Assembly: GCA_006226495.1 (NCBI GenBank)
Contig: SBGU01000013.1
Location: forward strand, 1 to 64,000
Direction: 5' to 3'
Source of the DNA: Alphaproteobacteria bacterium
Lineage (GTDB): Bacteria > Pseudomonadota > Alphaproteobacteria > Sphingomonadales > Kordiimonadaceae
Length of the DNA: 64,000 nucleotides
The notes under the pieces are model-generated. The model was not told where the DNA came from, made no database searches, and saw only the letters and a program-made list of their open reading frames with translations. Made by a program: the position numbers and the translations under genes. Shown piece after piece: positions 18,469-39,830 of the stretch; the first letter of the stretch is position 1, and each line of letters opens with the position of its first letter.

Positions 18469-18993
18469 TCACTTGCAGCCGATAACTCCGGCGACCGGCA
18501 ATACCGCCGACCAGCCCGCGTCGGTGGCGACCGACATGCTGCCGGTCGGCAGCTTCAGGCCCTGTTGAAGGCTTCTTAGGGATTCGGGCTGCACGGTCAC
18601 CTTGATGGTCATGTCCGCCTGCCGAAAGGTCTGGTCCTCGAAATATTGCATGGTGATGGGTGCCGACTTCTCCGTGCGGTGGGGCGACTGCACCTTGCCG
18701 TCAAGCGCCACGGACGCCACCCCGTCCGAGCGCTGGAAAAACACCAGGGGCGCATCCGGGCGCTTCAGCCACAGGAACAGCCCGCATTTGCCTTTGTCGA
18801 GCCGCTGGGGCGGCAGCACACCAAGGCGGGACAGAATTTCATCCGTGCCAAGCGGCGGGATCGCCGACGCGGCGGCCGAGCCTTCAAGACCCACCGTCTC
18901 TTCGGGCGGGGTCTGGCCCGCACAGGCGGCAAGGGCCAGAAATCCAGCAAGGCCTGCGGTGGCACGAAACAGTTGGATAGGGTGTGCAAACAT
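18469..18993 (-). CDS. Lipoprotein at the 3' end of the gsp operon
   Basis: 174 residues from the ATG at 18993, whose first base is the last base of the gspN stop (TGATG), so translation is coupled. A signal peptide ends in a lipobox LAACAGQ, marking a periplasmic or outer-membrane lipoprotein. The rest has a region with GKCGLFLWLKRPDAPLVFFQ and a C-terminal cysteine pair partner (VIGCK). I do not recognise the family. Position as the final gene of a complete T2SS operon suggests a role in that system, for example as a pilotin-like lipoprotein for the secretin; this is inference and the protein is longer than known GspS pilotins. Confidence 0.8.
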   Translation of the reverse strand: MFAHPIQLFRATAGLAGFLALAACAGQTPPEETVGLEGSAAASAIPPLGTDEILSRLGVLPPQRLDKGKCGLFLWLKRPDAPLVFFQRSDGVASVALDGKVQSPHRTEKSAPITMQYFEDQTFRQADMTIKVTVQPESLRSLQQGLKLPTGSMSVATDAGWSAVLPVAGVIGCK

Positions 18994-19733
18994 CAAAAAC
19001 TGTCCAGGCTAAGCTGGCCGCGCCAGCCATCGGGTTCGGCACGCAGTCCAGCAAACTCCAGCGCCGATTGCAAGTCGCTCGGCACCGGGGTGCCTTTGTC
19101 GGTGGTTACCACAACATCCAGCACCAGCGGCTGGCCGGGCTGCCAGCGGCCACCAGCTTTCAAGACCGCAACCCGGTTGCCGCCTTCAAGCCCATAGACA
19201 AACGCCCCGCCGTCGCAGCGCACTGGCCCGGCCAGAATTGGCGCTTCGCCGCCCATATTGCCGAAGCTGCGGGCCAGCATATCGCTTCTGAGGCGGACAC
19301 TGCCGTCGGCGCAGCCGCCTTGATCCGTCAGCACGATCCTGTCGCTGTTGATGGCAACCGCGCCCAAGAGCGGCAGTCGGCCAATTCGGCCATCGCTGTC
19401 CATCACCAGCCGCACATCCGTGAGCGCATAACCGGCTTCTGCATCAGCAACCGTCAGCCTGCCACTGAAATCACCCCCCGAAAAACTGATATCGGCGTCC
19501 ATCCCACCGGTCAGGAACGCAACCGCCGACGGTTCGATCTGCAGCGTACCCAGCGGCACGCCGGCGATGGCCGCGTCCGACAGGGTCATCTGCCACAGGC
19601 TGCCGGTCGCAGACGCATAGGCAAGACCACGCGGGCCGGCAATCGAAAGCGCCACGGACGCCGGCATGAAAGCGATGAAGCTGACGAGGAAAGCCAGCAC
19701 GCCGGCGGCGACAAGGGTGCGCAACCGCATCAT
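18993..19733 (-). CDS. gspN: Type II secretion system protein N
   Basis: 246 residues. One N-terminal transmembrane anchor (LVAAGVLAFLVSFIAFMPAS) is followed by GSLWQMTLSDAAIAGVPLGT, the conserved start of the GspN periplasmic domain, and then a beta-rich region. GspN is an inner-membrane accessory subunit found in only some T2SS operons. It is the twelfth gsp gene of this run (gspC to gspN) and overlaps gspM by 4 bases at its start and the lipoprotein gene by one base at its end. The assignment rests on sequence pattern plus fixed gene order. Confidence 0.85.
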   Translation of the reverse strand: MMRLRTLVAAGVLAFLVSFIAFMPASVALSIAGPRGLAYASATGSLWQMTLSDAAIAGVPLGTLQIEPSAVAFLTGGMDADISFSGGDFSGRLTVADAEAGYALTDVRLVMDSDGRIGRLPLLGAVAINSDRIVLTDQGGCADGSVRLRSDMLARSFGNMGGEAPILAGPVRCDGGAFVYGLEGGNRVAVLKAGGRWQPGQPLVLDVVVTTDKGTPVPSDLQSALEFAGLRAEPDGWRGQLSLDSF

Positions 19734-20206
19734 GCGCCGCCCCCCGCAAACTGAACCTGCACACGCAGCATGCCGCTGGTGCCGGATTTCTGGATGAATA
19801 CCTTCGCGGGCGCCACATTATGCTGTTCGGCCAGCGCATGCAGCCAGCCATACAGCGCGGGCGACGCCACGCTGTCGACCCACACGCCAAGCGCACCATC
19901 TTCACCCGGTTGCAGGCGGCTGATCGATACACCGGCATCCCGCGCAGCGGTTGCCACCAGTACCCTGAGCGGCTGGTCAGACCGCGTGGCGGTGCTGCCG
20001 CCGGCGCGGTACGCTTCCACCAGTGCGGCACCCGCCGCCACCTGTTCATAGGTTGCGCGCGCGGCCGTCAGGCTGCGTTCGCTATCGGCCCGGTAGGCCG
20101 CGACCGGACGGACGAGCACCAACCACACCAGCATCAGGGCGGTCAGGCCACCCGCAATCAGGATCAGCCCCTGTTCCCGGGCCGTAAGGCTTTGCCAGCG
20201 TTCCAT
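19730..20206 (-). CDS. gspM: Type II secretion system protein M
   Basis: 158 residues. A short cytoplasmic N-terminus (MERWQSLTAREQGLILIA) leads directly into one transmembrane helix and then a periplasmic ferredoxin-like domain with an alanine-rich coiled coil. This matches GspM, the inner-membrane platform subunit that pairs with GspL. Gene order L-M-N and overlaps of one base with gspL and 4 bases with gspN support the call. Confidence 0.88.
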   Translation of the reverse strand: MERWQSLTAREQGLILIAGGLTALMLVWLVLVRPVAAYRADSERSLTAARATYEQVAAGAALVEAYRAGGSTATRSDQPLRVLVATAARDAGVSISRLQPGEDGALGVWVDSVASPALYGWLHALAEQHNVAPAKVFIQKSGTSGMLRVQVQFAGGGA

Positions 20207-21303
20207 CAGCCTGCCCTCCTGACCGTCAGTTCCGAAAAAACCCGGGCGCCGTCCTGCCGGCTGCTGCCCTCGCGGACCAGAAGCCCGCCTTCCTGCAGCG
20301 CGCGGCGGAAACTGTCGCCTTCCGCATAGGACGCGAAGGACATGTTCAGCACCATGTCGCCCGTCGTCTGGTCATACCGCAGGCTTTCAACCAGGGTCTG
20401 GTCGCTGGCCTCAACCGCCCGGAATACCCGGTCGGACAGCGCAAAAAACTCGCCGCCGCCTTCCTGGGCATAACCCGCGACCGCACGGCGCATCTGCGCC
20501 TGCATATTCACGATGCGCGGCACATCGGGCAGCGCTTTCCTGAAGACAGCTTCCGCAGCGGCATAGGTGGCATCGGCCCGGCGGTTATTGTCGTAGGCCG
20601 CATAAAACCCGGTCGCAAGCCACAGGGCAAAGGCCAGAAGTGCCAGCACACCGGACCGCCGGAACCAGACCAGCATGGCCGCGACGTCCCCGCGTGGCGC
20701 GAAGGCACCCTGCAACAGGGTCGCTTCCGTGCCGCAGGCGGCGGGCAACAGCACCGGGCTGGAAATCTTCTCAGGGGCGGTCTGGCTGCCTGCCAGCATC
20801 GTGTCCGCAAGGTCTGCTTCGGCGGCAAAACCACTGCCGTCGGCGAAGCGCGCCAGCACACGGCCATGATAGCGGGCGGCATTCACCCCCTCGTCCGGCT
20901 GCGGCAGCAGCATATAGTCCGGCACCAGCAGTGTGGCGCTGATGCCAAGGCCGGCCAGCAAGATCATGATCCTGTCCATCACCGCCCGGTCCATCACCGC
21001 CACGGTTGCCGGCCGGTCTGCGGCACCGGCGGCCAGCACGGCAAAATGCCGGTCGGCACCCGCGCGCGAGATGCGTTCGTCCAGCACGCCGGGCAGGATT
21101 TTTACCAGTTTCTGGGGTGCGAAAGCCGGCAGCATCAGGCTGTGGCTGGCGACCCATTCGCCGGGCACCACCACAATGGCCGAACGGCCAGACAGGCTTT
21201 CGGCGCCAAGGTCGCCCAGCCAGCGGCCATCTTCCGCCACTGTGCCGGCGCGGGCCAAGCCGCCCAGGTCGGGCGTCAGTTCTATGACAAGGGTTTCGCT
21301 CAC
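20206..21303 (-). CDS. gspL: Type II secretion system protein L
   Basis: 365 residues from a GTG at 21303 that overlaps the gspK stop (GTGA). The N-terminal cytoplasmic domain is actin-like (VVVPGEWVASHSLMLPAFAP and LPGVLDERI); one transmembrane helix follows at about residues 236-254 (GVLALLAFALWLATGFYAA), and then a periplasmic domain. GspL binds the GspE ATPase on the cytoplasmic side and GspM in the membrane. Length and topology fit the family. Confidence 0.88.
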   Translation of the reverse strand: MSETLVIELTPDLGGLARAGTVAEDGRWLGDLGAESLSGRSAIVVVPGEWVASHSLMLPAFAPQKLVKILPGVLDERISRAGADRHFAVLAAGAADRPATVAVMDRAVMDRIMILLAGLGISATLLVPDYMLLPQPDEGVNAARYHGRVLARFADGSGFAAEADLADTMLAGSQTAPEKISSPVLLPAACGTEATLLQGAFAPRGDVAAMLVWFRRSGVLALLAFALWLATGFYAAYDNNRRADATYAAAEAVFRKALPDVPRIVNMQAQMRRAVAGYAQEGGGEFFALSDRVFRAVEASDQTLVESLRYDQTTGDMVLNMSFASYAEGDSFRRALQEGGLLVREGSSRQDGARVFSELTVRRAG

Positions 21304-22280
21304 TGGATCACTCCGTACCGACGCGCGCTGATGCGGGCTGCACCGTCATTGTCGATTTCGATCATGCTGGCCATATGGCTTGTCGCCTCGTGGAAAGTGA
21401 CCCGGATGCGGCTTTCGAAACGCTGCGGTTTCACCGCCGTGCGCCCGCGCACAGACTGTTCGATCTGCATGCCACCGAACACCGGATCGCGCCAGAAATC
21501 GCCCACGTCGGCATAACCGCGCGGCGGGCGCGTGGCAATCAGCTTCACCGCCGACGCCAGGGAAAAATCGCCCCCGACCAGCGCCTGCAACAGGGGCGCT
21601 TCTTCCACACGCATGCTGTTGACATTCAGGGTTTGGGGTTCGCTATTTGACCCCACACACAGGAAGGGCGACAGGCTGGCCATCAGCTCGCGCGAATAAC
21701 CGCGCACGCGGTACAGTTCGCTCAGGTCTGCGACCAGGCTGTTGGCAGCGCGGTACGGCGGTTTCATGACGCTATAGTCATAATCCTCGGCACCCAGGGC
21801 GCGGCTTTGGCTGTCGCTGTCCAGCCAGTCCACCAGCGCGTCGGACAATTGTTCGCCCACCGCATCCGCGAGCCCGAGTGAGGCCAGAAGGCGCCGATAT
21901 TCCGCCACGGCACCCGGCCGCACGGCCAGGCGGTTACCGTCGGACGCCTGCACCAGGCTGTTGACATTGAAACAGTTGCTGACGTCCGTCAGCACGCCGT
22001 CGATACGGCCGCCATCGATGGGATAGGACACGTCCTCTTGCAGGAAACTCTTGATATTATTGCGGTAAATATTTTCTGCCGCCGACAGCGCCAGTTGTTC
22101 GCCACCCAGCGCATAATAGCGCGCCTGGCCGTAAATCCGGTCGTTGGTCGCGCGCTTCACCGAATAGCCCAGCATGTCGAAGGTCACCGCCGCGCCCGCC
22201 GCCATGACAGACACCAGCAACAGCACAGTCACCAAGGCCGCACCCCGATCTGACCGGATTTTCCGAATGACGCGCTTCAT
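21300..22280 (-). CDS. gspK: Type II secretion minor pseudopilin K
   Basis: 326 residues, the usual size for GspK, the largest minor pseudopilin that caps the pseudopilus tip. It has a prepilin-like N-terminus, SDRGAALVTVLLLVSVMAAG, where cleavage is expected after the glycine. The stretches YYALGGEQLALSAAENIYR, ALVDWLDSDSQSRALGAED and LNVNSMRVEEAPLLQAL are characteristic of the family. Overlaps of 4 bases with gspJ and gspL indicate tight translational coupling. Confidence 0.9.
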   Translation of the reverse strand: MKRVIRKIRSDRGAALVTVLLLVSVMAAGAAVTFDMLGYSVKRATNDRIYGQARYYALGGEQLALSAAENIYRNNIKSFLQEDVSYPIDGGRIDGVLTDVSNCFNVNSLVQASDGNRLAVRPGAVAEYRRLLASLGLADAVGEQLSDALVDWLDSDSQSRALGAEDYDYSVMKPPYRAANSLVADLSELYRVRGYSRELMASLSPFLCVGSNSEPQTLNVNSMRVEEAPLLQALVGGDFSLASAVKLIATRPPRGYADVGDFWRDPVFGGMQIEQSVRGRTAVKPQRFESRIRVTFHEATSHMASMIEIDNDGAARISARRYGVIQ

Positions 22281-22888
22281 GCCCCGGTCCCCACCATGAA
22301 CAACAGCCTGAGGCTGCGCCCGGTATCGAAGGTCAGGGTGAATTCGGCCATTTTCGGCAGGCTGCCGCTGTCGCGGCCACGCCAGTCGTCGATCCAGATA
22401 CCGTCGGCATCGAAGCGCACTTCGGCTTTCTGGAGGCCGGACAGCAACACCCGGTCCGTGAAGGGCGTGTCGACCGTGCGATCGGCGCGGGCATAGGCGC
22501 GCCGGACAAGCTGGCCGTTTTCAAACCGGTAATCGACCCGGTCTACCGCGCTTTCACCGCCACCAATGCGCGCGCCCATATTGCCGCCGCGCACAAATTC
22601 CACGAGGCCCTCGGCTCCCAGGTGCACCCCGCCTTCGAAGGCGGACCCGGCGCCACCGAACGGGTCGCGCACCGGACGGTTGACTGCTTCCAGCATGTCG
22701 GCGCGCATGAGCGCCCGGGCCATGTCGACCGCCGCCAAACGTTCGTCCGCCGCCTGCAGGCCCATGCGGCCCGACTGGTAACCCGACAGGATGGCCACGC
22801 CCGCAGCCGCCACCAGCGCGAACAGGAAGGTCGCCACCATGGTTTCCACCAGCGAAAAGCCGCCATCGTTTGTGCGGGCACCCATCAT
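22277..22888 (-). CDS. gspJ: Type II secretion minor pseudopilin J
   Basis: 203 residues. It has a type IV pilin-like N-terminus NDGGFSLVETMVATFLFALV with the peptidase site between Gly and Phe and the conserved Glu at +5, followed by the pseudopilin helix and a beta domain of about 150 residues. GspJ forms the tip complex with GspI and GspK. It overlaps both gspI and gspK by four bases. The start could be the ATG at 22888 or the next codon at 22885. Confidence 0.9.
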   Translation of the reverse strand: MMGARTNDGGFSLVETMVATFLFALVAAAGVAILSGYQSGRMGLQAADERLAAVDMARALMRADMLEAVNRPVRDPFGGAGSAFEGGVHLGAEGLVEFVRGGNMGARIGGGESAVDRVDYRFENGQLVRRAYARADRTVDTPFTDRVLLSGLQKAEVRFDADGIWIDDWRGRDSGSLPKMAEFTLTFDTGRSLRLLFMVGTGA

Positions 22889-23274
22889 TTCACCGGCACC
22901 CTGCGATAGCCGGTCAGGGACGCAAGTTCCTGTTTCGGCGCCTCTTCCGCCACCACCGACACCTCGATCACCGCGATTTCATTCTGGGGCAGGATGCGCA
23001 CGGTTTCGCGCCACAGGAAGCCGGTGCCGAACTGTTCCTCGCGGCCCGTGCGGCTGCCGGCGTGCGGCTCTTCCGCGCGGGCGATGGTTTCATTCAAGCG
23101 GTTTTCGGCCACGATGGAGGCCAAGGTGCGTTCCTGCACCTGCCCGGTGATGCCGATGGCCTGGGTCTGGCTTTCCAGCAAGGTAACGGCGGCGATGGCC
23201 AAAACCGCGACCGCGACCAGCAGTTCCATCAGCGAAAAGCCGCTGTCCGCACCTGTGCCAATCCGCTCAGTCAT
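22885..23274 (-). CDS. gspI: Type II secretion minor pseudopilin I
   Basis: 129 residues. The N-terminus contains the prepilin site SGFSLMELLVAVAVLAIAAV with Glu at +5, then the family-typical sequence TLLESQTQAIGITGQVQERT and VAENRLNE. GspI nucleates assembly of the tip complex. It lies between gspH (8-base overlap) and gspJ (4-base overlap) in the standard T2SS order. Confidence 0.9.
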   Translation of the reverse strand: MTERIGTGADSGFSLMELLVAVAVLAIAAVTLLESQTQAIGITGQVQERTLASIVAENRLNETIARAEEPHAGSRTGREEQFGTGFLWRETVRILPQNEIAVIEVSVVAEEAPKQELASLTGYRRVPVK

Positions 23275-23755
23275 GGCGTTTCACCTTGAAGCGGCCATCG
23301 CCGGAACCAGTGAGCACCGCTTCGGTGTCACCCAGTGTCAGGGTCAGTTTGAAGGGCGGCTGTTCGCCTGTGGGCAGGAACCAGATATGCGGTGTGACCT
23401 CGCCCGTTTTTGGCTCCATCTCAACCCCTGCGACCTCAAGGGCCGCGAAGCTGGCGGGGCCAAAGCGCAAGGCATCAGGCTTCAGCACATCGGCATCGAC
23501 CTGCCAGCCATTGTCGGTGGCCGCCAGGGTCTGGAAACCTTCGGCATCAAAGCGCACGCCGATCACCCGGCCCGTCAGCACACTTTCGCGCGACAGGGCA
23601 ACAAAGGCACGTTCGGTGGTTTCGGCCACCCGTTCAAGCCGCGTGTCGCTGGACGGGATCGCCATCACCACAGCGCCCGCCATCAGGCCGATGATGGCGA
23701 CAACCACCATCACTTCCACAAGGGAAAAGCCCGTGTCTGCGCGCGCCGGTTTCAT
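23267..23755 (-). CDS. gspH: Type II secretion minor pseudopilin H
   Basis: 162 residues. Prepilin N-terminus TGFSLVEVMVVVAIIGLMAG with cleavage after Gly and Glu at +5, then the family region VAETTERAFVALSRESVLTGRVIGVRFD and a beta-rich C-terminal domain. GspH is thought to link the tip complex to the main pseudopilus. It is separated from gspG by 8 bases and overlaps gspI by 8 bases. Confidence 0.9.
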   Translation of the reverse strand: MKPARADTGFSLVEVMVVVAIIGLMAGAVVMAIPSSDTRLERVAETTERAFVALSRESVLTGRVIGVRFDAEGFQTLAATDNGWQVDADVLKPDALRFGPASFAALEVAGVEMEPKTGEVTPHIWFLPTGEQPPFKLTLTLGDTEAVLTGSGDGRFKVKRHD

Positions 23756-23763
23756 GATGCCGG

Positions 23764-24228
23764 TTATTCCTTGTCCGCTTTCCAGTTGCCGATGTCGGCA
23801 TTCATGCCGTCGCCGCCGGGTTTGCCGTCGGCACCATAGGAAAAGATGTCGACCTTGCCGTGTTCACCGGGGAACAGATACTGGTAGGGCTGGCCCCAGG
23901 GGTCGGTCGGCAGTGCCTTGATATAACCTTCCGTGCGGAAGGAAGCGCCTTTGGGCGGGTTCACCAGTGCTTCAAGACCGTCCTCCAGGCTCGGGTACTT
24001 CAGCGTGTCCATGCGGTACATTTCAACCGCCTGCTCGATCAGGTGCACATCGGCGCGGGCCTTTTCGACCATGGCGCGGTCCTGGCTTGGCAGCACGTTG
24101 ATCACCACAATGGTGGTCAGAAGCCCGATGATCACGATCACGACCATCAGTTCAATGAGCGAAAAGCCGTCGTCGTCCTCTTGCAGGCGGGCGCGCAGCC
24201 GGTTCAGTTTGCAGATCAGGTGTTTCAC
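23764..24228 (-). CDS. gspG: Type II secretion major pseudopilin G
   Basis: 154 residues starting at a GTG (24228) with AGGAGA upstream. The prepilin site DGFSLIELMVVIVIIGLLTT is classic, followed by VEKARADVHLIEQAVEMYRM and the C-terminal calcium-loop region YGADGKPGGDGMNADIGNW. GspG polymerises into the pseudopilus that pushes cargo through the secretin. The N-terminal leader before the cleavage site is about 21 residues, longer than the usual 6-10. Confidence 0.95.
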   Translation of the reverse strand: MKHLICKLNRLRARLQEDDDGFSLIELMVVIVIIGLLTTIVVINVLPSQDRAMVEKARADVHLIEQAVEMYRMDTLKYPSLEDGLEALVNPPKGASFRTEGYIKALPTDPWGQPYQYLFPGEHGKVDIFSYGADGKPGGDGMNADIGNWKADKE

Positions 24229-24239
24229 CTTCCGTCTCC

Positions 24240-25469
24240 TTACATCAACACCAGGCTGTTGAGCCTGAGAATGGGCAGCATGATCGACAGCACAATCGCG
24301 CCGACGATACCACCCATGAAAATCACGATCAGCGGCTCCAGAAGGCTGAGCGCCGATTTGGTGAAGCCGTCAAATTCACTTTCCAGATAGTCCGCAGCCT
24401 TGTGCAGCATCAGGCCAAGCTGGCCGCTGCGTTCGCCGGCGGCGACCATATAGCCCAGCATCGGCGGCAGTTCCTGAACACCCCGGAGTGCCGCCGCGAC
24501 ACCCGTGCCTTCGCGCACCTGGGTGACGACGTCTTTCAACCGCGCGGCGATGCGGGCATTGCGCACGGTCTGGCTGGCGGCGACCAGGGCATCGAGCGCG
24601 GGGCTGCCACCCTGCACCAGGGTCCCGAACGCCCGGGCAAAACGCGCGGCATTGACCGCGCGGATCAGCCGTCCGACAAGCGGCAGCCTGAGCATTTGGC
24701 CATGCACTTGCAAGCGCACGGGGGGGCGGGAAAGTGTTGCACGTGCAACAAAAACACCCGCCACAATCGCAAGCAGAAGCCAGAGGCCGTAGCTCGTCAG
24801 GAAACCGGACACACCGACGACGATTTTGGTCAGGGTCGGCAGTTCACTGCCAAAATGGTCGAACTGGGCCACCACTTTGGGCACCACAAAAACCATCAGC
24901 GCGGTCACGACCGCGATGGCCACCACCATCAACACGGCAGGGTAGATGAGCGCGGCCTGCACCTTGGCGCGGGTCTCCTGCGACTTTTCCCGGTGGTCGG
25001 CCACCCGGGCCAGCACGCGGCCCATGTCACCCGAGGCTTCGCCGGCGGCGACCATGGCGCAATAGAGGCTGTCGAACGTCGCACTTTCCTGTTCCATGGC
25101 CTGCGAGAGGCGCATGCCTTCCATCACACTGGCACGCACGCGGGTCAGCACCGCCCGGACCGCAGGTTTTTCGGCCTGCGACGCCAGCGCCGACAGGGCT
25201 TCTTCGACCGGCGAGGCGGCTTCGATCATGGTGGCAAGCTGGCGGGTGATCAGCGCCAGGTCTTTTTCGGAAATGCGTTCCCGGCGTTCCAGAATGCTGA
25301 ACCGGCTGGGGGCGGCGTCTTTGGCTTTGGCGCGCGCCGGGCTGATGCGGGTCGCGAACAATTGCCGCGCCATCAGGCGCTGGCGTGCGTCCCGTTCGCC
25401 ATCCGCCGCGATGGTGCCGCGCCGGGCCTTGCCGGCGCCGTCCAGCGCTTCATAATCAAACGCCTGCAC
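24240..25469 (-). CDS. gspF: Type II secretion inner-membrane platform protein F
   Basis: 409 residues from a GTG at 25469 with GGAGG upstream, overlapping the 3' end of gspE by 14 bases. Three transmembrane helices (about 172-192, 220-240, 375-400) and two repeated cytoplasmic helical domains (ALITRQLATMIEAASPVEEA and FARAFGTLVQGGSPALDALV) are the signature of GspF/PilC. It anchors the ATPase GspE to the inner-membrane platform. Confidence 0.94.
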   Translation of the reverse strand: MQAFDYEALDGAGKARRGTIAADGERDARQRLMARQLFATRISPARAKAKDAAPSRFSILERRERISEKDLALITRQLATMIEAASPVEEALSALASQAEKPAVRAVLTRVRASVMEGMRLSQAMEQESATFDSLYCAMVAAGEASGDMGRVLARVADHREKSQETRAKVQAALIYPAVLMVVAIAVVTALMVFVVPKVVAQFDHFGSELPTLTKIVVGVSGFLTSYGLWLLLAIVAGVFVARATLSRPPVRLQVHGQMLRLPLVGRLIRAVNAARFARAFGTLVQGGSPALDALVAASQTVRNARIAARLKDVVTQVREGTGVAAALRGVQELPPMLGYMVAAGERSGQLGLMLHKAADYLESEFDGFTKSALSLLEPLIVIFMGGIVGAIVLSIMLPILRLNSLVLM

Positions 25470-26940
25470 CCGCTGCCTCCTTCACGCGGGAAACCCGCAT
25501 GACTTCCTCAACCGTCGTGATACCGTTCATCACCAGCCGCTTGCCGCTGTCGGACAGGGTGTCCGCCGAACGGAAGGCATGTTTGGCCATGGCCTGTTCG
25601 CTGGCGCCTTCCTGGATCATGTGCCTGAGATCGTCGTCGATGGTGACCAGTTCATAGATGCCGATCCGGCCCGCATAACCCTTGCCGCCGCAGGACGGGC
25701 AGCCGACGGGCTCGTAAAAGGTGACATGGTCAGATTTCTTCACGCCCAGTTCATGGCGCAAGGTCTTGTCGTCCTCGACCGGCCTTTTGCAGTCCGGGCA
25801 CAGTTTGCGCACCAGCCGCTGGGCCAGGATACCCTTGACGGTGGAGGCCAAGAGGAACGGCTCCACCCCCATGTCGCGCAGGCGCGTGACCGCGGCCACG
25901 GCGCTGTTGGTATGCACGGTGGACAAAACCAGGTGGCCGGTCAGGCTGGCCTGGATCGCCATTTCGGCGGTTTCCATGTCGCGGATTTCGCCGACCATCA
26001 CCACATCCGGGTCCTGCCTGAGGATCGCGCGCAGGCCGGAGGCGAAGGTCATGCCCACCTTCGGGTTCACCTGGGTCTGGCTGACACCATCGAGCGCATA
26101 TTCGACCGGGTCTTCGACGGTCATGATATTGCGGGTCTGGTCATTCAGAAGCGCGAGGCCGGCATACAAGGTGGTGGTCTTGCCCGAGCCCGTGGGGCCG
26201 GTGACCAGGATGATGCCGTTTGGCTCGGAGAGCAGCGCATGCATGCCGGCATTCACCGCCTTCTGCATGCCAAGGTCTTCAAGCGTGATATGGGCACGCG
26301 CGGTATCCAGAAGCCTGAGCACCACCCGTTCGCCGTGGCGCGACGGCAGGGTGGACACCCGCACATCAAACACCCGGTCGCCCAGCTTCAGGGACAGGCG
26401 GCCATCCTGCGGGATGCGTTTTTCGGCAATATCCAGCCGCGCCATCACCTTGATGCGCGACACGATATAGGGCGCAAGCCGGGCGGGCAGCGCCACGATT
26501 TCATTGAGCACCCCATCGACCCGCAAGCGCACCGACAGGCGGTTTTCGAACGGTTCCATATGGATGTCCGACGCCTTGTGCTTCACGGCTTCGGCGATCA
26601 GGCTGTTGATCAGGCGGATGACCGGCGCATCATCTTCGCTGGCAAGCAAATCGGCGGCTGCTGGCATGCCTTCAAGCGCGCTGTCCAGGCTTTCGGCCGG
26701 CAGCGCATCGTCGATGCCGCTGTCGATGCCTTCAACCGCATGCATGTCCGAGAGAAGCGCATCAAAGGCCTGTGCCGTGCGGGTTTCAAGCGTGAGCGGC
26801 ACCCCAAGCGCACGCCTGACTTCGGCCAGCATGCGCACGTCGGCGCCTTCGCGCAGCACCACAGTCGCCTGCGTATCGTCAAGCGCCGTGACGGTCATGC
26901 CATATTCGCGGGCGAAACCGTATCTGAGCACAGGGTCCAT
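25456..26940 (-). CDS. gspE: Type II secretion ATPase E
   Basis: 494 residues from the ATG at 26940 (GGGGGAGG upstream; a GTG-like extension to 26955 is less likely). Walker A GPTGSGKTTTL has Lys254; the aspartate box, Walker B (DPDVVMVGEIRDMETAEMA) and His box follow, and the C-terminal zinc site has two CxxC pairs (LCPDCKRP and GCPSCGGKG). It powers the pseudopilus and is membrane-associated through GspL. Length and motifs are normal. Confidence 0.96.
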   Translation of the reverse strand: MDPVLRYGFAREYGMTVTALDDTQATVVLREGADVRMLAEVRRALGVPLTLETRTAQAFDALLSDMHAVEGIDSGIDDALPAESLDSALEGMPAAADLLASEDDAPVIRLINSLIAEAVKHKASDIHMEPFENRLSVRLRVDGVLNEIVALPARLAPYIVSRIKVMARLDIAEKRIPQDGRLSLKLGDRVFDVRVSTLPSRHGERVVLRLLDTARAHITLEDLGMQKAVNAGMHALLSEPNGIILVTGPTGSGKTTTLYAGLALLNDQTRNIMTVEDPVEYALDGVSQTQVNPKVGMTFASGLRAILRQDPDVVMVGEIRDMETAEMAIQASLTGHLVLSTVHTNSAVAAVTRLRDMGVEPFLLASTVKGILAQRLVRKLCPDCKRPVEDDKTLRHELGVKKSDHVTFYEPVGCPSCGGKGYAGRIGIYELVTIDDDLRHMIQEGASEQAMAKHAFRSADTLSDSGKRLVMNGITTVEEVMRVSRVKEAAGAGV

Positions 26941-26960
26941 GGAAACCTCCCCCACCCCGG

Positions 26961-28979: not shown

Positions 28980-28985
28980 TGTGGT

Positions 28986-29825
28986 TCAATTTCCCCTGAG
29001 CGGAACGGTCAGCGTGCGCCGCTCGCCCCTGCGTTCAATATCGAGAACCAGCCGGTCCGCGCCCGCAAGCTCGTCCGGTAGTTCTTCCAGCCGTTCAAAA
29101 GACGCCAGCGGCGCGCCGTTGGCCGCCAGCAGAATGTCACCTGCTTCAAGCCCCACGGCGCCAAGTGCTGCAGGCAGCCTGTCGCCAAGGCGGAAACCGA
29201 TGATACGGCCATCGCGCCGCTCGGGCGCCAGTTCGAGCGCCGACAGGTCCACGAGCAGGCCAGATGTCGCGGCGCGCGGCTGGCTGGCCGCCGGGCGGCC
29301 TGGGGCCGCCGCTGCGACCGCGGCGCGCTGCGCCTTGGGCCTGAGGTAAACGGCTTCGCGCACACCGGCGCGGCTGATTTCAAGCCGGTCGGTATAGACG
29401 GCAACCAGCCGCACGTCGTTTGAAAGATCGTCGCCGACCCGGACCAGTTTCTGGTCCTCGGACTGCATCTTGATGATGGCACTGCCCTGGCCTTCCCCCA
29501 TGGCGCGCAGGCCGAAGACTTCGATCCTGAGCGAACTTTCCGGCACCAGCGCATCAGCGATGGCAGCTTCGGCGCTCCGGATCTGGCGGGAGAAGGGATC
29601 AAAAGACAGAAGGCGGGCGACATCGGTCTTGCTGCCGGCCCGGGCCTGGCCCGCCACCGCCGCGGCACTGCCTGCAGGCGTGTCGTCCAGCAATGCGAAC
29701 GCAAAATGCGCGGCTTGCCAGCCAAGCAGGATCACCAGCGCCAGTTCGGTCGCTTTTACAGCCCAGCTTGCCCCGCGGGGCAGCACCGGTTGCTGTTTCC
29801 CATGTTCAGGCGCAGCGCTACCCAT
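28986..29825 (-). CDS. gspC: Type II secretion protein C
   Basis: 279 residues. A cytoplasmic N-terminus, one transmembrane helix (about 25-45, ELALVILLGWQAAHFAFALL) and the HR domain (IEVFGLRAMGEGQGSAIIK, RVGDDLSNDVRLVAVYTDRL) are followed by an Ala-rich linker and a C-terminal PDZ-like domain (LGAVGLEAGDILLAANGAPL). GspC links the inner-membrane platform to the secretin. It is the first gene of the operon; the promoter is expected in the 126 bases between it and the TonB-receptor gene. Confidence 0.9.
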   Translation of the reverse strand: MGSAAPEHGKQQPVLPRGASWAVKATELALVILLGWQAAHFAFALLDDTPAGSAAAVAGQARAGSKTDVARLLSFDPFSRQIRSAEAAIADALVPESSLRIEVFGLRAMGEGQGSAIIKMQSEDQKLVRVGDDLSNDVRLVAVYTDRLEISRAGVREAVYLRPKAQRAAVAAAAPGRPAASQPRAATSGLLVDLSALELAPERRDGRIIGFRLGDRLPAALGAVGLEAGDILLAANGAPLASFERLEELPDELAGADRLVLDIERRGERRTLTVPLRGN

Positions 29826-29906
29826 GTAGCTTCCCTGTTTCCAAAAGCATCGTTTTTGATCGGTATGATCCGGCCTCTTTGTGCCGCTTGATCACCAGTT
29901 ATAACG

Positions 29907-29932
29907 CAGCCCACCGCCGAAGCGATGGGCTG
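29907..29932. terminator. Stem-loop with UUCG tetraloop between the receptor gene and gspC
   Basis: An 11-base stem (one G-T pair) CAGCCCAccGC/GCgaTGGGCTG encloses CGAA on the plus strand, which is C(UUCG)G on the minus-strand RNA, a very stable tetraloop. It lies 20 bases after the receptor stop codon. The T-rich run (29933-29947) is on the plus-strand side, so termination of the minus-strand transcript without a U-run is an inference. Confidence 0.6.
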
Positions 29933-29951
29933 ATTTGATTTTTTTCCAAGC

Positions 29952-32588
29952 CTAGAACTTGAAGGTGAAACCGACACTGAAGGTGCGGCCGATCTCGTAT
30001 TTTTCGGTGATCAGGCCTTCCTGTACCCAGGTCTGGTCGTCGTTCAAGAGGTTCTCTGCCTTCAGGCTGAGTTCCAGACGGTTGGCGCCGGCATTCACCT
30101 CAAACTCGCGCTTGTAGATGAAGTTCAGCATGACCGGCGGGCGCTCGTATTCGTCTTCGACGAAGTTGATGCCCACACCCGACAGGCGCTCACCCGTATA
30201 GTTCAGCACCAGCGCCGCAGATTCGCCGCGGTTATAGTCTTCGAAACCGAAGGTCACGTTGGCAAGCCAGTCGGACTGGCCCTGCATCGGGCGCACCAGG
30301 TTGGTGGTGGTGGTACCAGCCGGCAGGTTCGCGGGATCGATGGTGGTTTCACTATCGATGTAGGAGCCGTTGGCGCGAATGTAGAATTCGCGGTCGCCAA
30401 GCCAGCTCCAGCCCAGCCACTCCTGGAACGGAACGATCTTCTCGACCTCGATCTCGACACCCTTCAGTTCGGCTTTGGCGGCATTGATGTAACCACCCAG
30501 CGGGCCTTCACCCAGGATCGAGAAGGTTTCTTCGATCGGGTTGTCGAACTTCTTGTAGAAGGCACCGACGGTCAGGCTTTCACCGGCTGCGAAGTACCAT
30601 TCGAAACGAGCATCATAGTTCTCGATTTCGGTGATCTTCAGGTTCGGGTTGCCCCGGATGGTGCGGTTACGCTCATAATCCACGAACGGCGCCGACGACA
30701 GTTCCCGCATGTCCGGGCGGGTGATGGTCTGGCTGTAGGCCAGGCGCACCTGCATGTTGTCGATGATTTCGTAGGTCAGCGTACCGGCCGGCAGCCAGTA
30801 GTTGGCATTCTGGGTGACCGAGATCGGCTGGTCGGTTGTGCGGTCGACCGTGTCTGCCGTCTGGGTTGAATCCTCGTAGCGGAAGCCGAACGCTGCACGC
30901 AGGCGCGGCGTGATTTCGACATCGGCACTCAGATAACCCTGCCAGGTTTCGAAGCCTGCGGTGAAATAGTCCGACGCATCGAACTTTTCCTGCAAGGTGA
31001 TGCCGCCCGGACCCACGTTGACCGGACCGAAGATGATTTCCGGTACCAGTTCACGCAGTTCGGCCGGATGGCCCGACGGGAAAGCGTAATAATAACGCAC
31101 AACGCCGTAACCGCGGTCCTTGTCGTTGTAGGTCAGGCCGGTTTTGAAGTCGACAGCCAGGCCGCCGATGTTGGTGGCCTGCTTGATGTCGAAACCGGCT
31201 TCATACGATTCTTCATCCAGCGCGCTGTAGCTCGTGGTGTTGAAGTCGGCACGCGGGCGGGTGATATAGACATCGTCGCCTTCGTCATAGACATAGGCGA
31301 TCGACCGGCCGAGCGGCGCATCGCGGTCCGCGCGGGAATAGTTGAAGCGCCAGTCCAGTTGGGTGTCCAGCATGGTATCGCTGTTGCCGAACGGCGTGAA
31401 CGAATGGTCACCCGAAATCTGGTTGGTCCAGACCTGGCTTTCGATCCAGTCGATGGAGGACGTGGTACGCAGTTCGTCCTTCTCCGACGCGATGAAGCCT
31501 TTTTCGATCAGCGCCCGCTTGCTCGACTGACGCAGCACGGTCGAGGTGATGTTGATCGCGTTGTTGGCATTGATCTCGTAACCCAAGGACAGGATGCCGT
31601 TGAGGTCGATATCCATGTTGGTCTGGTGGAAACCGCAATCGTCACCGGCGTTTTCGTTGCCGCGCGGTGCCAGTTTCTTGCAGACGTTCGGCGAGAAGCT
31701 GAAACGTTCCACAAGGCCGGCGTTCGAGGTGTTGAAGCCCCGGCGGATACCGTCCTTGTTGGTCTGCATGATGTCGTAGTTCACGGCGGCGAAGAAGCCC
31801 ATGGCGCCTTCGTTGCCAACTTCATAGCGGTTGCCCCACAACAGGCTGAAGCTGCCGCCCGGATAGTTGGGTTCCTTGTCGATCGACCAGACGTTGGGGA
31901 TCGCTTCGGCTGCGGCCTCGCGTTCTGCCGCCGTCAGGCTGACCAGGGAAACGTCCTTCAGAAGCGCATCGGGAATGTTGCGCATCTTGCCGCCAAAACC
32001 GAAGATTTCGGAGCCGGAACCGTCGTAGCTCAGACCGTCCTTGAAGGTGGATTCGGTGTTGAACTTGGAACCGACGCCGATTTCGAAGATGAACTCGTCG
32101 GGCACGGTTTTGGTGCGCAGGTCAACAACACCACCACCGAACGCGCCCGGATACTCGGGCGAGAAGGTCTTCTGCACGAGCACGGATTCGATCATTTCGG
32201 TCGGGAAGATGTCGAGCGGCACGACCCGGCGCAGCGGCTCCGGGCTCGGGATACCCGACCCGTTCAGGAGGGTCGAGCTGTAGCGGTCACCCAGACCGCG
32301 GACATAGACATATTTGCCACCGACAACCGACAGGCCGGGTACGGCCTGCAGCGCCACCGCAACATCGGATGCACCGATCTGCGAGAAGGCTTCGCTGTCC
32401 ATGACGTTCGAGATTTCAGACGTCGCACGCTTTTCGTCAGGTACATAACGCCCCTGGACCGTGATTTCCTCAACATTGTCCTGAGCCGCCTGATCCTGCG
32501 CGAAGGCGCCGTGCGGTACCATCAGGACCGTGGACGCCAGAAGCACACGCTTCAGATTAGTGTGGATCAAATTCATTTTGGCCACCAT
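29952..32588 (-). CDS. TonB-dependent receptor linked to the T2SS locus
   Basis: 878 residues with a signal peptide ending in GAFAQD (about residue 31). The TonB-box region EEITVQGRYVPDEKR, plug domain (ISNVMDSEAFSQIGASDVAV and YVYVRGLGDRYSSTLLNGSG) and 22-strand barrel end (MLNFIYKREFEV ... SVGFTFKF with terminal Phe) are clear. It imports a substrate across the outer membrane. The gene follows the large repeat lipoprotein gene by 72 bases and precedes gspC, so it may be regulated with both. Plug features are those of the family that pairs with surface lipoproteins rather than with siderophore transport, but the ligand is unknown. Confidence 0.92.
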   Translation of the reverse strand: MVAKMNLIHTNLKRVLLASTVLMVPHGAFAQDQAAQDNVEEITVQGRYVPDEKRATSEISNVMDSEAFSQIGASDVAVALQAVPGLSVVGGKYVYVRGLGDRYSSTLLNGSGIPSPEPLRRVVPLDIFPTEMIESVLVQKTFSPEYPGAFGGGVVDLRTKTVPDEFIFEIGVGSKFNTESTFKDGLSYDGSGSEIFGFGGKMRNIPDALLKDVSLVSLTAAEREAAAEAIPNVWSIDKEPNYPGGSFSLLWGNRYEVGNEGAMGFFAAVNYDIMQTNKDGIRRGFNTSNAGLVERFSFSPNVCKKLAPRGNENAGDDCGFHQTNMDIDLNGILSLGYEINANNAINITSTVLRQSSKRALIEKGFIASEKDELRTTSSIDWIESQVWTNQISGDHSFTPFGNSDTMLDTQLDWRFNYSRADRDAPLGRSIAYVYDEGDDVYITRPRADFNTTSYSALDEESYEAGFDIKQATNIGGLAVDFKTGLTYNDKDRGYGVVRYYYAFPSGHPAELRELVPEIIFGPVNVGPGGITLQEKFDASDYFTAGFETWQGYLSADVEITPRLRAAFGFRYEDSTQTADTVDRTTDQPISVTQNANYWLPAGTLTYEIIDNMQVRLAYSQTITRPDMRELSSAPFVDYERNRTIRGNPNLKITEIENYDARFEWYFAAGESLTVGAFYKKFDNPIEETFSILGEGPLGGYINAAKAELKGVEIEVEKIVPFQEWLGWSWLGDREFYIRANGSYIDSETTIDPANLPAGTTTTNLVRPMQGQSDWLANVTFGFEDYNRGESAALVLNYTGERLSGVGINFVEDEYERPPVMLNFIYKREFEVNAGANRLELSLKAENLLNDDQTWVQEGLITEKYEIGRTFSVGFTFKF

Positions 32589-32610
32589 CAGCTTTCATTT
32601 TATGGCGTGA

Positions 32611-32647
32611 CGCCGCAGCGAAGGCGCGTTGAAGCCTCGCTGCGGCG
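32611..32647. terminator. Strong hairpin between the repeat lipoprotein and the TonB-receptor gene
   Basis: Perfect 11-base stem CGCCGCAGCGA/TCGCTGCGGCG, extendable by GGC/GCC after one bulge, lies in the 72-base gap between the two genes. There is no T-run on the minus strand. It could be an attenuating terminator or an mRNA-processing/stability hairpin that sets the lipoprotein to receptor ratio. Confidence 0.65.
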
Positions 32648-32660
32648 CACAGTACATTGC

Positions 32661-33968
32661 TTATTGGTTCAGCCAGACCGTCCAGCCAGCGGTCCAGTCT
32701 TCGGACGCGCTCTTGACTGCACCAGCGAAGTCAACGGCATCGAAGAAGCTGTTGATCGCGCTGACATCGGTGGCCACGACCGCGTTTTCGGTAGCGCCGT
32801 TGATGTAGGTCTTGAAGCTTGCGCCACCCGATGCGGCGGTCAGGGTATCGAGAGCAACCACGTTGTTCGGCTGGTTGGTGAACCAGGCTTCGAGGTCAAA
32901 CACGTTGCCGTCGTTCTTGAAGACTTCCGGGCAGGAAGTGCTCAGGAGCGTCGATTCCATGGTCAGGTCACCGGTCAGGGTGGTGGCATCCGGGCCCGAA
33001 ACCGTGAAGGTCGCGTCCTGGTCGATGTCGAGGCAGGCCTCGCCGAAGTCGGCCACAACCACGTTCCACAGGTTCGCGGCAGTACCTTCACGCAGCAGGA
33101 TGCCGATATCCGATTCACCGCCGGCAGCGCCGCCACCGATGATGGTGACGTTGGCGATTTGCGGATGGGCACGCGGCAGGAAGTCGTTACCGTCGCCATA
33201 GTTGTCGGCTTCGATGCCCTGGTCGGATGCAGCCTGGTTCGGGTTCTGGATGATCAGAACATGCTGAACCATACCGCGCCAGCCCTGGGTCCAGTCGAGG
33301 CTGTCGTCGTCGGCACCGGTCAGGACCAGGTGCTTGGCACGCACGGTACCACCGAAGAATTCAACCGCATCGTCTGCGCCGTTGTGAACCTGCAGGTAAT
33401 CGATCTCGGTGTTGCGGCCAACGCCCTGGAACGCGATACCGTTCAGTTCGTCGTCAGCGGTGATCGGGTTACCGGCATAGATCACGCGGGTGTAGAACAT
33501 CTGGCCGCTGTCGTCGTCGTCGTCATTGCCGCCATAGAGGCCGCTGTCGCCTTCGCCTTCGGCTTCACAGATCGCGGTCTGGTTACAGGTGTTGATGGAC
33601 GCACGGCCGTTGATCACGATACCGCCCCACAGCGAGGTGTCGGTGTCGAGGTTGCGGGTGTCGGGGTCGACGGCGGTGAAGGTCACCGGGGCGTCAGCCG
33701 TACCGTTCGAGTTCAGTTTCGAACCGCGGGAAACCACCAGGTAGCTCTCGAGATCGGCGCCCATGACGGTCACGCCCGGCTCGATGGTCAGGGTCGCGGC
33801 ATGGCCGGTCGACAGCGGGTTGGCCTTGTCGCCACCCATGTCGGTACCGATGACCACTTTGCCCGAAAGCATGTAGGTCAGGCCCGAAACAAGGCGGATA
33901 TCGTCGTTGTAGGTGCCCGAAAGGGTACATACGGTGCCTTCGCTGTTGGCCGTCGTGCCTTCGGGGCA
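32661..33968 (-). repeat. Internal repeat unit 2 of the large lipoprotein
   Basis: Codons 523-957, homologous to unit 1 through the blocks AGNPITADDELNGIAFQGVG, GIEADNYGDGNDFLPRA and CLDIDQD. See unit 1 for the exact shared DNA stretch. Confidence 0.85.
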
Positions 33969-35534
33969 GGTCGGCGCCGGGTTCAGGCCGTAAGTCCAGT
34001 TCAGGGTCCAGTTGTCGTCGGCGTCGTCGCTTTTCACCGCACCGGCATAGGCGGTCGCGTCGAAGAAGCTGTCCTCGGTCGAAACGTCGGTACCGGTGAC
34101 GGCATTTTCAGCCGAACCGTTGATGAAACCGTTCGACAGCGTGGTGGCGCCGACAACGTTGTTCGGCTGGCTCAGGAAGTAGGTTTCCAGATCGAAGTTG
34201 TTGCCATCGTCCTTGAACACGTCTTTGCAGTTGCTGCCCAGAAGCGTGGATTCGATGGTCAGGTTGCCGGTGAGGTTGGTTGCGCTGGTGCCGGCGTTGA
34301 TGAAGGTCGAATCCTGGTCGATGTCGAGGCAGGCATCGCCGAAATCGGAAACAACGGTGTTCCAGATGTTGGCGCCGGTGCCTTCGCGCAGCAGCATGCC
34401 GATGTCGCTTTCACCGCCCTGGCTGTAGGTGCCGACGATGGTGAAGTTGGCCAGCTTCGGCTGGGCGCGCGGCAGGAAGTCGTTACCGTCGCCATAGTTG
34501 TCGGCTTCGATCCCCTGGTCCGATGCAGCTTGGGCCGGGTTCTGCATGATGATGACATGCTGGGCCTTGCCGCGCCAACCCTGGGTCCAGTCGAAACCGT
34601 CGTCGTCGGCACCGGTGATGACCAGGTGCTTGATCTGAGTGGCGCCGCCGAAGAATTCAACACCGTCGTCTGCGCCGTTGTGAACCTGGATATAATCGAG
34701 GGTCGTACCCGAACCCACACCCTGGAATGCGATGCCGTTCAGTTCGTCGTCTGCGGTGATCGGGTTGCCGGCATACTTGATCTGGACATATTTCATCGTG
34801 CCCGACGAGTCGGTGTCGAGGTTGCCGCCATAGAGGCCGCTGTCGCCTTCACCTTCTGCTTCACAGACGGCAGCCTGGTTACAGGTGTTGATCTGGGCGC
34901 GACCGTTGATCACGATGCCGCCCCATTCTGCGGTGTAGGGCTCGGCGAGGGCCGGGCCCGAGTAGGAAGCCGGGGCATCAAGGCCGAGGGAGCTGGCGAG
35001 GCCGAGATCGAGACCCGAGGTAAAGCGGATCGGGTTCGTGGAGGAACCGTTGGCCATGATCTTGGAACCGCGCGAGATCACCAGGACGTCGGTCTTGGTC
35101 GCACCGTAAATAACGGTGCCTGCCGGGATGGTCAGGGTCGCGGGGTCGCCGGCGCCGGCGCCACCTTCTGCGCCAACGTCAACACCGATCACAACCTTGC
35201 CGGAGAGCTGGTAAACGTTATTGGCGGTCAGGGTGACATCGTTGGTGATGGTGCCGGACAGCGAACAATGGGTCTGTTCGCCAACGGTGATCGCGGTGGT
35301 GCCGGTCGGGCAGGTGCCGGCCGACGTGAATACCTTGCCTTCGCGGTCGACGATTTCGGTCGGGGTCTCGCCACCGCCGCCACCGCCGCCGCCACCATTG
35401 CCGCCGCCGGTACCCGGATTCGGGCCGGACGTGCCGGGCGATGCCAGTTCGGTGCTATCGTCACCACAGGCCACAAGCGCGCAGGCGGCAACTGCTGCCA
35501 AAAGCGTGTTCTTAAGAATCTGAAGCTTAGTCAT
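32661..35534 (-). CDS. Large secreted lipoprotein of two beta-helix-like repeats (candidate T2SS cargo)
   Basis: 957 residues. A signal peptide with lipobox ALVACGDD places the lipidated cysteine at residue 23; Gly24-Asp25 follow. A poly-glycine linker (about 43-55) leads to two homologous units starting at CPTGTTA (residue 75) and CPEGTTA (residue 523). Each contains LSGKVVIG, a block ending in NTCNQ..CEAEGEGDSGLYGG, AGNPITADDELNGIAFQGVG, HNGADD-VEFFGG, GADDD-DWTQGWRG, QGIEADNYGDGNDFLPRA and LREGT-ANIWN-like strands. The short repeats suggest a right-handed beta-helix. I do not know its function; position beside a T2SS operon and upstream of a TonB receptor suggests it is surface-exposed cargo and possibly the ligand-capturing partner. 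Confidence 0.8.
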   Translation of the reverse strand: MTKLQILKNTLLAAVAACALVACGDDSTELASPGTSGPNPGTGGGNGGGGGGGGGETPTEIVDREGKVFTSAGTCPTGTTAITVGEQTHCSLSGTITNDVTLTANNVYQLSGKVVIGVDVGAEGGAGAGDPATLTIPAGTVIYGATKTDVLVISRGSKIMANGSSTNPIRFTSGLDLGLASSLGLDAPASYSGPALAEPYTAEWGGIVINGRAQINTCNQAAVCEAEGEGDSGLYGGNLDTDSSGTMKYVQIKYAGNPITADDELNGIAFQGVGSGTTLDYIQVHNGADDGVEFFGGATQIKHLVITGADDDGFDWTQGWRGKAQHVIIMQNPAQAASDQGIEADNYGDGNDFLPRAQPKLANFTIVGTYSQGGESDIGMLLREGTGANIWNTVVSDFGDACLDIDQDSTFINAGTSATNLTGNLTIESTLLGSNCKDVFKDDGNNFDLETYFLSQPNNVVGATTLSNGFINGSAENAVTGTDVSTEDSFFDATAYAGAVKSDDADDNWTLNWTYGLNPAPTCPEGTTANSEGTVCTLSGTYNDDIRLVSGLTYMLSGKVVIGTDMGGDKANPLSTGHAATLTIEPGVTVMGADLESYLVVSRGSKLNSNGTADAPVTFTAVDPDTRNLDTDTSLWGGIVINGRASINTCNQTAICEAEGEGDSGLYGGNDDDDDSGQMFYTRVIYAGNPITADDELNGIAFQGVGRNTEIDYLQVHNGADDAVEFFGGTVRAKHLVLTGADDDSLDWTQGWRGMVQHVLIIQNPNQAASDQGIEADNYGDGNDFLPRAHPQIANVTIIGGGAAGGESDIGILLREGTAANLWNVVVADFGEACLDIDQDATFTVSGPDATTLTGDLTMESTLLSTSCPEVFKNDGNVFDLEAWFTNQPNNVVALDTLTAASGGASFKTYINGATENAVVATDVSAINSFFDAVDFAGAVKSASEDWTAGWTVWLNQ
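33969..35312 (-). repeat. Internal repeat unit 1 of the large lipoprotein
   Basis: Codons 75-522. Compared with unit 2 it is longer by some insertions. The two units share an exact 44-base identical stretch at 34468-34511 and 33172-33215, so the duplication is still visible at DNA level. Confidence 0.85.
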
Positions 35535-35742
35535 TTTATAAGATTTCCCCGTACGACATAGACGTCGCTTGATGGTTTTGTTGCAAGCGAACGGGCCGAC
35601 CGAAGGAGGGCCAGCTCCCGGGGCAAAAGGCGTAAGGGAGAAGTGTTTCAGTTTCTTTTCGGAATCTTTATCATTACTGTAACATTTCGGAATTTGTGGT
35701 CAGGGGCACCGAAAAACCCAGGATTTCTGCGGTTTTATCGAT

Positions 35743-36294
35743 TTATACAATCGAAAGGTGCCAGAAATACAACCACGAAAGCCATGCCCCGAGGCAAAGG
35801 AAGGGCCCGAAGGGCAACCGGGCCTGTGCAATCGGCCCTTTTGTGCGGTCCAGTGTCAAAAAGCCGTAACCCAATCCCGACAGCGATGCGACCAGCAAAA
35901 CCACCGGCAGGGCCTGCCAGCCAAGCCACATGCCGACTCCGGCCATCAGCTTCGCGTCCCCGAGCCCGATCCCGTCGCGCCCGCGCAGGCTTTTGTAGAC
36001 AAGATTGATGGCCGGAAAGATCAGGAACCCGGCAATGGCACCATAGATATGATGCGCCAGCGCATGATAGGGGCTGATCCAGGCTGCCATGCAGCCGGTC
36101 AGGAACAGGGTCAGGGTCAGAAGGTTCGGCAGGCGGAAAAAGCGCCAGTCATACAGGCTGAGCACCCAGAGATTCAGGAACAGCACAAGGGACGGCAGCA
36201 GAGGTGCCGGGGAAAAGAACCAGCCTGCGGCTGGCAACAGACACACGACAGCATGGCGCGGCATGTTGCGCATGCCGTCCGCCCTGTCATCCAT
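35743..36294 (-). CDS. gspO: Short prepilin peptidase (A24 family) without methyltransferase domain
   Basis: 183 residues if the ATG at 36294 is used; ATGs at 36273 or 36264 and a GTG at 36354 are alternatives and no ribosome site decides. The catalytic aspartates of the A24 family are present in SLYDWRFFRLPN and GLGDAKLMAGVG. The N-terminal zinc-binding, N-methylating domain of full-length GspO/PilD is missing, as in TadV/CpaA-type enzymes, so it is an aspartic leader peptidase only. Six to seven hydrophobic segments fit. It would process GspG-K; it is the only prepilin peptidase in the window, but it is separated from the operon by the receptor and lipoprotein genes. Confidence 0.8.
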   Translation of the reverse strand: MDDRADGMRNMPRHAVVCLLPAAGWFFSPAPLLPSLVLFLNLWVLSLYDWRFFRLPNLLTLTLFLTGCMAAWISPYHALAHHIYGAIAGFLIFPAINLVYKSLRGRDGIGLGDAKLMAGVGMWLGWQALPVVLLVASLSGLGYGFLTLDRTKGPIAQARLPFGPFLCLGAWLSWLYFWHLSIV

Positions 36295-36450
36295 CGCGCT
36301 TTCATTGTCAGACTGTTGCACCCGGTCCCCCGCGCCGCACGCTCGGGCGGCCACACATATTTATAATAGGGCTGCGCGCCTTATGGGAAGGGGCTTGGCA
36401 CCGGTCGTCCGTGCCGGCTGGCGGCAAAACACCGGCCCTGCCCCGCCCGT

Positions 36451-39822: not shown

Positions 39823-39830
39823 GCCGACAC

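Follow-up and report, generated by a model that had tools for sequence, protein, structure and literature searches.

In Caulobacter crescentus, the lipoprotein gene cc0170 (elpS), the TonB-dependent receptor (TBDR) gene cc0171 and the type II secretion system (T2SS) genes gspC-N were reported by Le Blastier et al. in 2010, together with a similar gene order in Xanthomonas campestris, Sphingomonas alaskensis and Hyphomonas neptunium (PMC2996285). For Xanthomonas, one TBDR gene and two hypothetical genes are described upstream of xcsC in a paper that also cites an earlier report of xcs flanks conserved with Caulobacter (PMC2585010). Here, we analyse a cluster of this kind on the minus strand of a 64,000-nt stretch (the window) of contig SBGU01000013.1, from a bacterium of the Kordiimonadaceae. 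The cluster is transcribed in the order A24 prepilin peptidase, 957-aa lipoprotein, TBDR, gspC-N and 175-aa lipoprotein. A sequence-only reading of the window had named this gene set with its shared strand and coordinates, which profile searches of the window proteins bear out. It had also stated that it knew of no account of the exact combination; the implied novelty is wrong, as the Caulobacter and Xanthomonas papers have it in print. The combination is already known, and the Kordiimonas additions to it are a doubled lipoprotein and a short peptidase; our literature search turned up no paper combining Kordiimonas with type II secretion.

The cluster is probably the Kordiimonas form of elpS-cc0171-gspC-N, in which the lipoprotein and the TBDR would scavenge phosphorus as a pair and the T2SS would be an accessory; we infer the transfer of this role to Kordiimonas. 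Phosphorus is proposed because Caulobacter elpS is reported to be induced by phosphate starvation (PMC2996285), the Caulobacter T2SS is placed within the PhoB regulon (PMC11208175), and the ElpS-related lipoproteins of Flavobacterium are described as induced by low inorganic phosphate (Pi), as a major fraction of the exoproteome and, in two cases, as adjoining low-Pi TonB-dependent transporters (PMC8115612). In Caulobacter, ElpS overproduction is also reported to correlate with higher extracellular phosphatase activity, and gspE and gspL are expressed in rich medium too (PMC2996285). This reading would correct the notion that the T2SS delivers the lipoprotein, would make the lipoprotein-TBDR pair the conserved unit, and raises the question of the route by which ElpS-type lipoproteins cross the outer membrane.

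Conservation of the pair and of the secretion genes

The link to ElpS runs through a 518-aa homologue at locus L190 (genome G438), which carries LAGC at residues 17-20, as reported for ElpS (PMC2996285), and is followed by a TBDR, matches to gspD-L and an opposite-strand peptidase. In these features L190 matches the published Caulobacter locus, and from them we infer its species. The two halves of the window lipoprotein align to the L190 protein with 33% and 35% identity (E 7e-65 and 8e-60), identifying it by homology as an ElpS-family member. The same lipoprotein family is carried by Brevundimonas, Phenylobacterium and Asticcacaulis loci among our named loci, which are the best 80 of 504 confirmed candidates. 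In the family of genome G333, 85 of 199 genomes, G438 among them, have a lipoprotein match; this family is probably the Caulobacteraceae, because the G333 lipoprotein and its counterpart at the Brevundimonas bacteroides locus share 78% identity.

The TBDR is a near-constant neighbour of the lipoprotein. It lies directly downstream at all 33 loci of relatives that are long enough to show it (in some of these the contig ends inside the TBDR; L066 ends too soon and was left out) and within 1 kb at 77 of the 78 named loci that leave 300 nt or more for it. This near-invariant adjacency supports a partnership of lipoprotein and receptor, as the sequence-only reading had proposed. GspD and GspE lie downstream on the same strand at 33 of the 70 named loci with 8 kb or more of room (L087, whose gsp genes lie upstream on the other strand, was scored as a miss). 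These gene orders are best read as a conserved unit of lipoprotein and TBDR, to which the T2SS would be a frequent accessory.

On a tree of 78 receptors, 70 of them labelled, T2SS linkage takes 14 changes, at least 12 of which are forced by starred branches; this is a quick tree with SH-aLRT support only. The linkage is clustered on this tree, with 0 and 1 of 500 label shuffles as low, and it recurs in several families. Among 59 relatives, the lipoprotein is found in 34, GspC in 30 (29 over the cut-off) and both in 28; the two lie within 5 kb on one contig in 25 of these 28, G024 and G029 being cut by contig ends and G032 being unlinked. Of the 99 genomes of family f5, which is probably the Sphingomonadaceae in the wide sense, 67 carry the lipoprotein, and GspD passes the cut-off in 47. 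Both occur in 35 genomes, the lipoprotein only in 32, GspD only in 12 and neither in 20, an association that is not significant (Fisher p = 0.20). Where both occur, they lie within 15 kb in 21 of 35 genomes, 15 of them in the downstream, same-strand order.

Export and function of the lipoprotein

The window lipoprotein has the lipobox LVAC/GDDS, followed by a CGDDSTELASPG tether. Its two halves are 61% identical over 455 columns, which confirms the description of a repeat lipoprotein in the sequence-only reading. Pfam and NCBIfam searches gave no match to it, and a sequence search against solved structures gave nothing beyond chance for the lipoprotein (best match 0.013, to the low-complexity linker) and no match for the TBDR. 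Its AlphaFold model (mean pLDDT 88.8, confidence being low near the N-terminus, residues 11-57) has 14 Foldseek matches at E<=0.001, all of which we take to be beta-helix proteins. Twelve of the 14 are polysaccharide lyases or hydrolases, the best being a PL6 alginate lyase (E 3.6e-6), and TM-scores are low. In the model, the lipoprotein is thus predicted to be a beta-helix protein with two domains that arose by duplication. The identity between the halves is close to that between whole orthologues in other genera of the family (60-67%; 53% for G024), a hint that the duplication is old or that the halves have evolved in concert. SusD-type lipoproteins have a helical fold, and the window lipoprotein does not fit this type, as it is modelled as a beta-helix and has no Pfam match.

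The sequence-only reading had taken the lipoprotein for T2SS cargo delivered to the cell surface, to be contradicted if the lipoprotein still reached the surface in a T2SS mutant. In a Caulobacter gspC-N deletion, ElpS is reported to remain in the outer membrane and to be sensitive to proteinase K, with only its release failing, and protease inhibitors are reported to block release (PMC2996285). This deletion amounts to the T2SS-mutant check of the sequence-only reading, and it refutes surface delivery by the T2SS in the homologue. Outside the Kordiimonadaceae, cargo delivery is also contradicted by the 32 of 67 lipoprotein-bearing f5 genomes that have no GspD over the cut-off. In our proposed mechanism, the duplicated ElpS-type lipoprotein would be exported by Sec, lipidated and, as shown for the Caulobacter homologue, placed on the outer side of the outer membrane independently of the T2SS. 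Its conserved, SPG-bearing N-terminus and low-complexity tether would hold the two beta-helix domains outside the cell, where the lipoprotein and the adjoining TBDR may form a surface pair for phosphorus compounds, both the physical pairing and the ligand being predictions. The gspC-N T2SS, with its short GspO, would secrete other proteins, including a protease whose cut in the tether would release the lipoprotein, as the Caulobacter authors themselves inferred from protease inhibitors (PMC2996285).

A motif that may bear on surface export follows the lipidated cysteine. SPG is present in 67 of 75 named family members, at a distance of 6, 7 or 8 residues in 35, 26 and 6 members, and is followed by a tether that is mostly Pro/Thr- or Gly-rich. 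Five of 80 loci, which gave no signal peptide, were left out, and 67/75 leans high, as PG, DD or DE was favoured in choosing between ambiguous lipoboxes. The exceptions are seven gammaproteobacterial members of CGGDI or CGGGDI type and one Sphingomonas member with TPG. The conservation of SPG beside an otherwise low-complexity tether points to recognition, either by the TBDR or by a factor for surface export, and an SPG motif 6-8 residues after the lipid cysteine is possibly new. Tentatively, and with considerable doubt, we raise the idea that ElpS-type lipoproteins follow a T2SS-independent surface route read from a conserved tether motif behind the cysteine. The motif would be C-x(6-8)-SPG in Alphaproteobacteria and some members from elsewhere, and a CGGDI-type start in most gammaproteobacterial members, with the nearly always adjoining TBDR as docking or export partner. 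If true, Proteobacteria would have a counterpart of the export signal of Bacteroidetes lipoproteins, and the T2SS would be a release device that was repeatedly recruited or lost. Slam was considered as exporter, and the genome has no PF04575 match, but the control matched nothing either, making the search uninformative.

A different route, pullulanase-like, would have the CGDD lipoprotein avoid the Lol pathway, stay in the inner membrane and be carried to the surface by the T2SS. We regard this as unlikely, and keep it as a candidate in Kordiimonas because of gene co-occurrence and the N-terminus. The lipoprotein occurs in 21 of the 29 genomes of family f1, which its named members identify as Kordiimonadaceae. 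GspC is present in every one of the 19 lipoprotein-bearing genomes with a completeness of 90% or more, and the remaining two (G006, G009) have strong GspE matches. Of the eight f1 genomes lacking the lipoprotein, six show no GspC and no strong match to GspE; the other two are G011, which has a T2SS, and G026, in which only GspE matches strongly. The pair and the T2SS have thus been gained or lost nearly together in this family. In the Kordiimonas lipoproteins that could be read, the mature N-terminus is CGDDSTEL(A/Q)SPG, and CGDD after the lipid cysteine is given as an inner-membrane retention signal in Pseudomonas aeruginosa (PMC2996285). The one-strand order, with no terminator-like site found on the minus strand between lipoprotein, TBDR and gspC, also fits this route. 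It sits poorly with the surface location of the Caulobacter homologue without a T2SS and with the f5 genomes that lack GspD, and the +2/+3 rules may not hold for Alphaproteobacteria; relatives in the same family have CGDSSTE or CGGDSSTE (7 of the 27 rows, L009, L011, L012, L013, L014, L023 and L024, were not read). It is quite improbable, in our view, that the lipoprotein is instead a pectin-lyase-like surface protein that binds or cleaves glycans and supplies the TBDR with sugars or phosphorylated glycans, the link to phosphate being peculiar to Caulobacter and Flavobacterium. The predominance of polysaccharide-active enzymes among the Foldseek matches points this way, as does the modelling of the Flavobacterium lipoproteins on polygalacturonase by their authors (PMC8115612). 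Nevertheless, TM-scores are low, beta-helices are generic, there is no Pfam match, and phosphate induction is published for two phyla. Lastly, shared regulation or chance transfer could have made the pair and the T2SS neighbours with no functional tie, which the labile linkage on the receptor tree and the non-significant f5 co-occurrence would allow; given the clustering of linkage on that tree, its recurrence in several families and the reported need of ElpS release for the T2SS in Caulobacter (PMC2996285), we consider this very improbable.

Several observations nonetheless weigh against a phosphorus-scavenging pair with an accessory T2SS. These include the f1 co-occurrence and the CGDD signal, together with four Caulobacter results reported as data not shown: ElpS overproduction is toxic without the T2SS, deleting cc0171 leaves ElpS production unchanged, cc0171 is expressed equally in rich and poor media, and cell phosphate is unchanged (PMC2996285). 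No ligand of the pair is known, and L150 is the sole named locus without an adjoining TBDR. In a scan of the window with an E. coli-type Pho-box consensus, no match fell between the peptidase and the lipoprotein. Across the window there were 13 matches where 8.9 were expected, with as many in 9 of 100 shuffles, and Pho boxes were set aside as proof of phosphate control.

Layout of the cluster and its surroundings

The T2SS core set C-N comprises 12 genes in one operon by Pfam and NCBIfam profiles (Table 1). Among these, gspH scores 78.6 bits against an NCBIfam cut-off of 80, gspM gives a weak match, and gspC is above the Pfam cut-off and below that of NCBIfam.

Table 1. Features of the cluster, in order of transcription; coordinates are those of the whole 64,000-nt window.
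Feature	Coordinates	Strand	Evidence
Short A24 prepilin peptidase (predicted GspO function)	35743-36354 or from ATG 36294	-	PF01478 2.4e-19; no N-terminal PF06750
Lipoprotein upstream region	35535-35742	-	~45-bp block conserved in genus, around 35640-35690
Putative ElpS-family lipoprotein, tandem duplicate of beta-helix domain, 957 aa	32661-35534	-	Lipobox, L190 homology, model
TBDR, cc0171-like by position	29952-32588	-	PF00593 3.4e-30, PF07715 8.2e-11, adjacency
gspC	28986-29825	-	PF11356 4.2e-18
gspD	26961-28979	-	TIGR02517 2.5e-158
gspE	25456-26955	-	TIGR02533 7e-198
gspF	24240-25469	-	TIGR02120 5.3e-141
gspG	23764-24228	-	TIGR01710 1.9e-48
gspH	23267-23755	-	TIGR01708 5.1e-22, just under cut-off
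gspI	22885-23274	-	TIGR01707 1.5e-18
gspJ	22277-22888	-	TIGR01711 6.5e-19
gspK	21300-22280	-	NF037980 3e-67
gspL	20206-21303	-	TIGR01709 6.4e-54
gspM	19730-20206	-	NF007274 1.4e-6, operon position
gspN	18993-19733	-	PF01203 1.5e-18
175-aa lipoprotein, last gene of operon	18469-18996	-	Recurrence in relatives; all-beta model

A peptidase for the pseudopilins is present, with both aspartate motifs kept and activity predicted. The sequence-only reading had called it truncated. It does lack the N-terminal PF06750 domain, for which there are zero matches across the genome, but it is an intact gene and not a broken one, because all eight loci of the order in which the peptidase was measured share the short form (177-203 aa) with both motifs; the L151 frame (133 aa) starts near the end of its locus and stands outside this count. 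Given a peptidase without PF06750, the pseudopilins may remain unmethylated. The genome has two A24 matches in all, and the second, 6 kb from a weak GspE-like ATPase match, probably belongs to what we read as a Tad locus.

Among the 20 cluster regions of relatives (L031-L050), 15 have the 175-aa lipoprotein after gspN or gspM, and some of the remaining five end near gspN; it is also present at L194. Its model is all-beta (pLDDT 85.1), with zero Foldseek matches at E<=0.001. The GspS pilotin of the secretin has a helical fold, and the 175-aa lipoprotein was set aside as a pilotin of this type on the basis of its all-beta model and the lack of a significant fold match. The protein is a possible candidate for an undescribed T2SS accessory lipoprotein.

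Upstream of the 957-aa lipoprotein gene, the conserved block (consensus GTTACAAAAAnGGTAAAACTTCCGAAAnnAAACTGTCACA) lies about 100-150 bp away and is shared by 13 aligned Kordiimonas regions, window included. Its 19-bp core has no second copy in the genome at 0 or 1 mismatch; the five further genome matches all have 2 mismatches, against 3 matches for a reversed control pattern, and the core was rejected as evidence for phosphate control. Farther upstream, positions 38527-43416 hold a phosphodiesterase-like gene, a PhoD-like phosphatase and a second TBDR, with two overlapping Pho-box-like matches upstream of this TBDR at 43510-43538. An upstream phosphate island was rejected, as none of the three genes recurs in the ~9-kb upstream regions of 20 relatives (tblastn E<=1e-4). 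The Kordiimonas loci examined have a divergent pair upstream of the cluster, encoding a small TPR protein (36537-36893) and a 194-aa protein (37186-37770). A 1497-aa open frame on the plus strand (31068-35561), opposite the lipoprotein and TBDR genes, is probably a by-product of codon usage.

Relation to described systems

The cluster shares with SusD-SusC and BtuG-BtuB the logic of a surface lipoprotein encoded beside a TonB transporter; it differs from them in the predicted beta-helix of its lipoprotein, and its pairing is known from gene order. The FI and FII lipoproteins of Flavobacterium johnsoniae are related by their authors to ElpS, with 31-36% identity over about half the length; they belong to another phylum, and the cited parts of the paper, on whose description this comparison is based, mention no gsp operon alongside (PMC8115612). 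The Xanthomonas xcs system resembles the window, as judged from its description, in the TBDR and the two hypothetical genes upstream of xcsC. It is a second T2SS beside xps, and is reported to be closer to the Caulobacter T2SS than to xps (PMC2585010).

The Caulobacter elpS locus and the Kordiimonas cluster differ in the lipoprotein and in the peptidase. The lipoprotein of the Caulobacter-type locus L190 is single, at 518 aa, whereas that of Kordiimonas is doubled, and the peptidases of L190, L191 and L193 (253-289 aa) lie downstream on the opposite strand, whereas the Kordiimonas peptidase (~200 aa) lies upstream on the same strand. The two share a homologous lipoprotein of surface type, a TBDR and gspC-N in the same order, and a prepilin peptidase at the locus.

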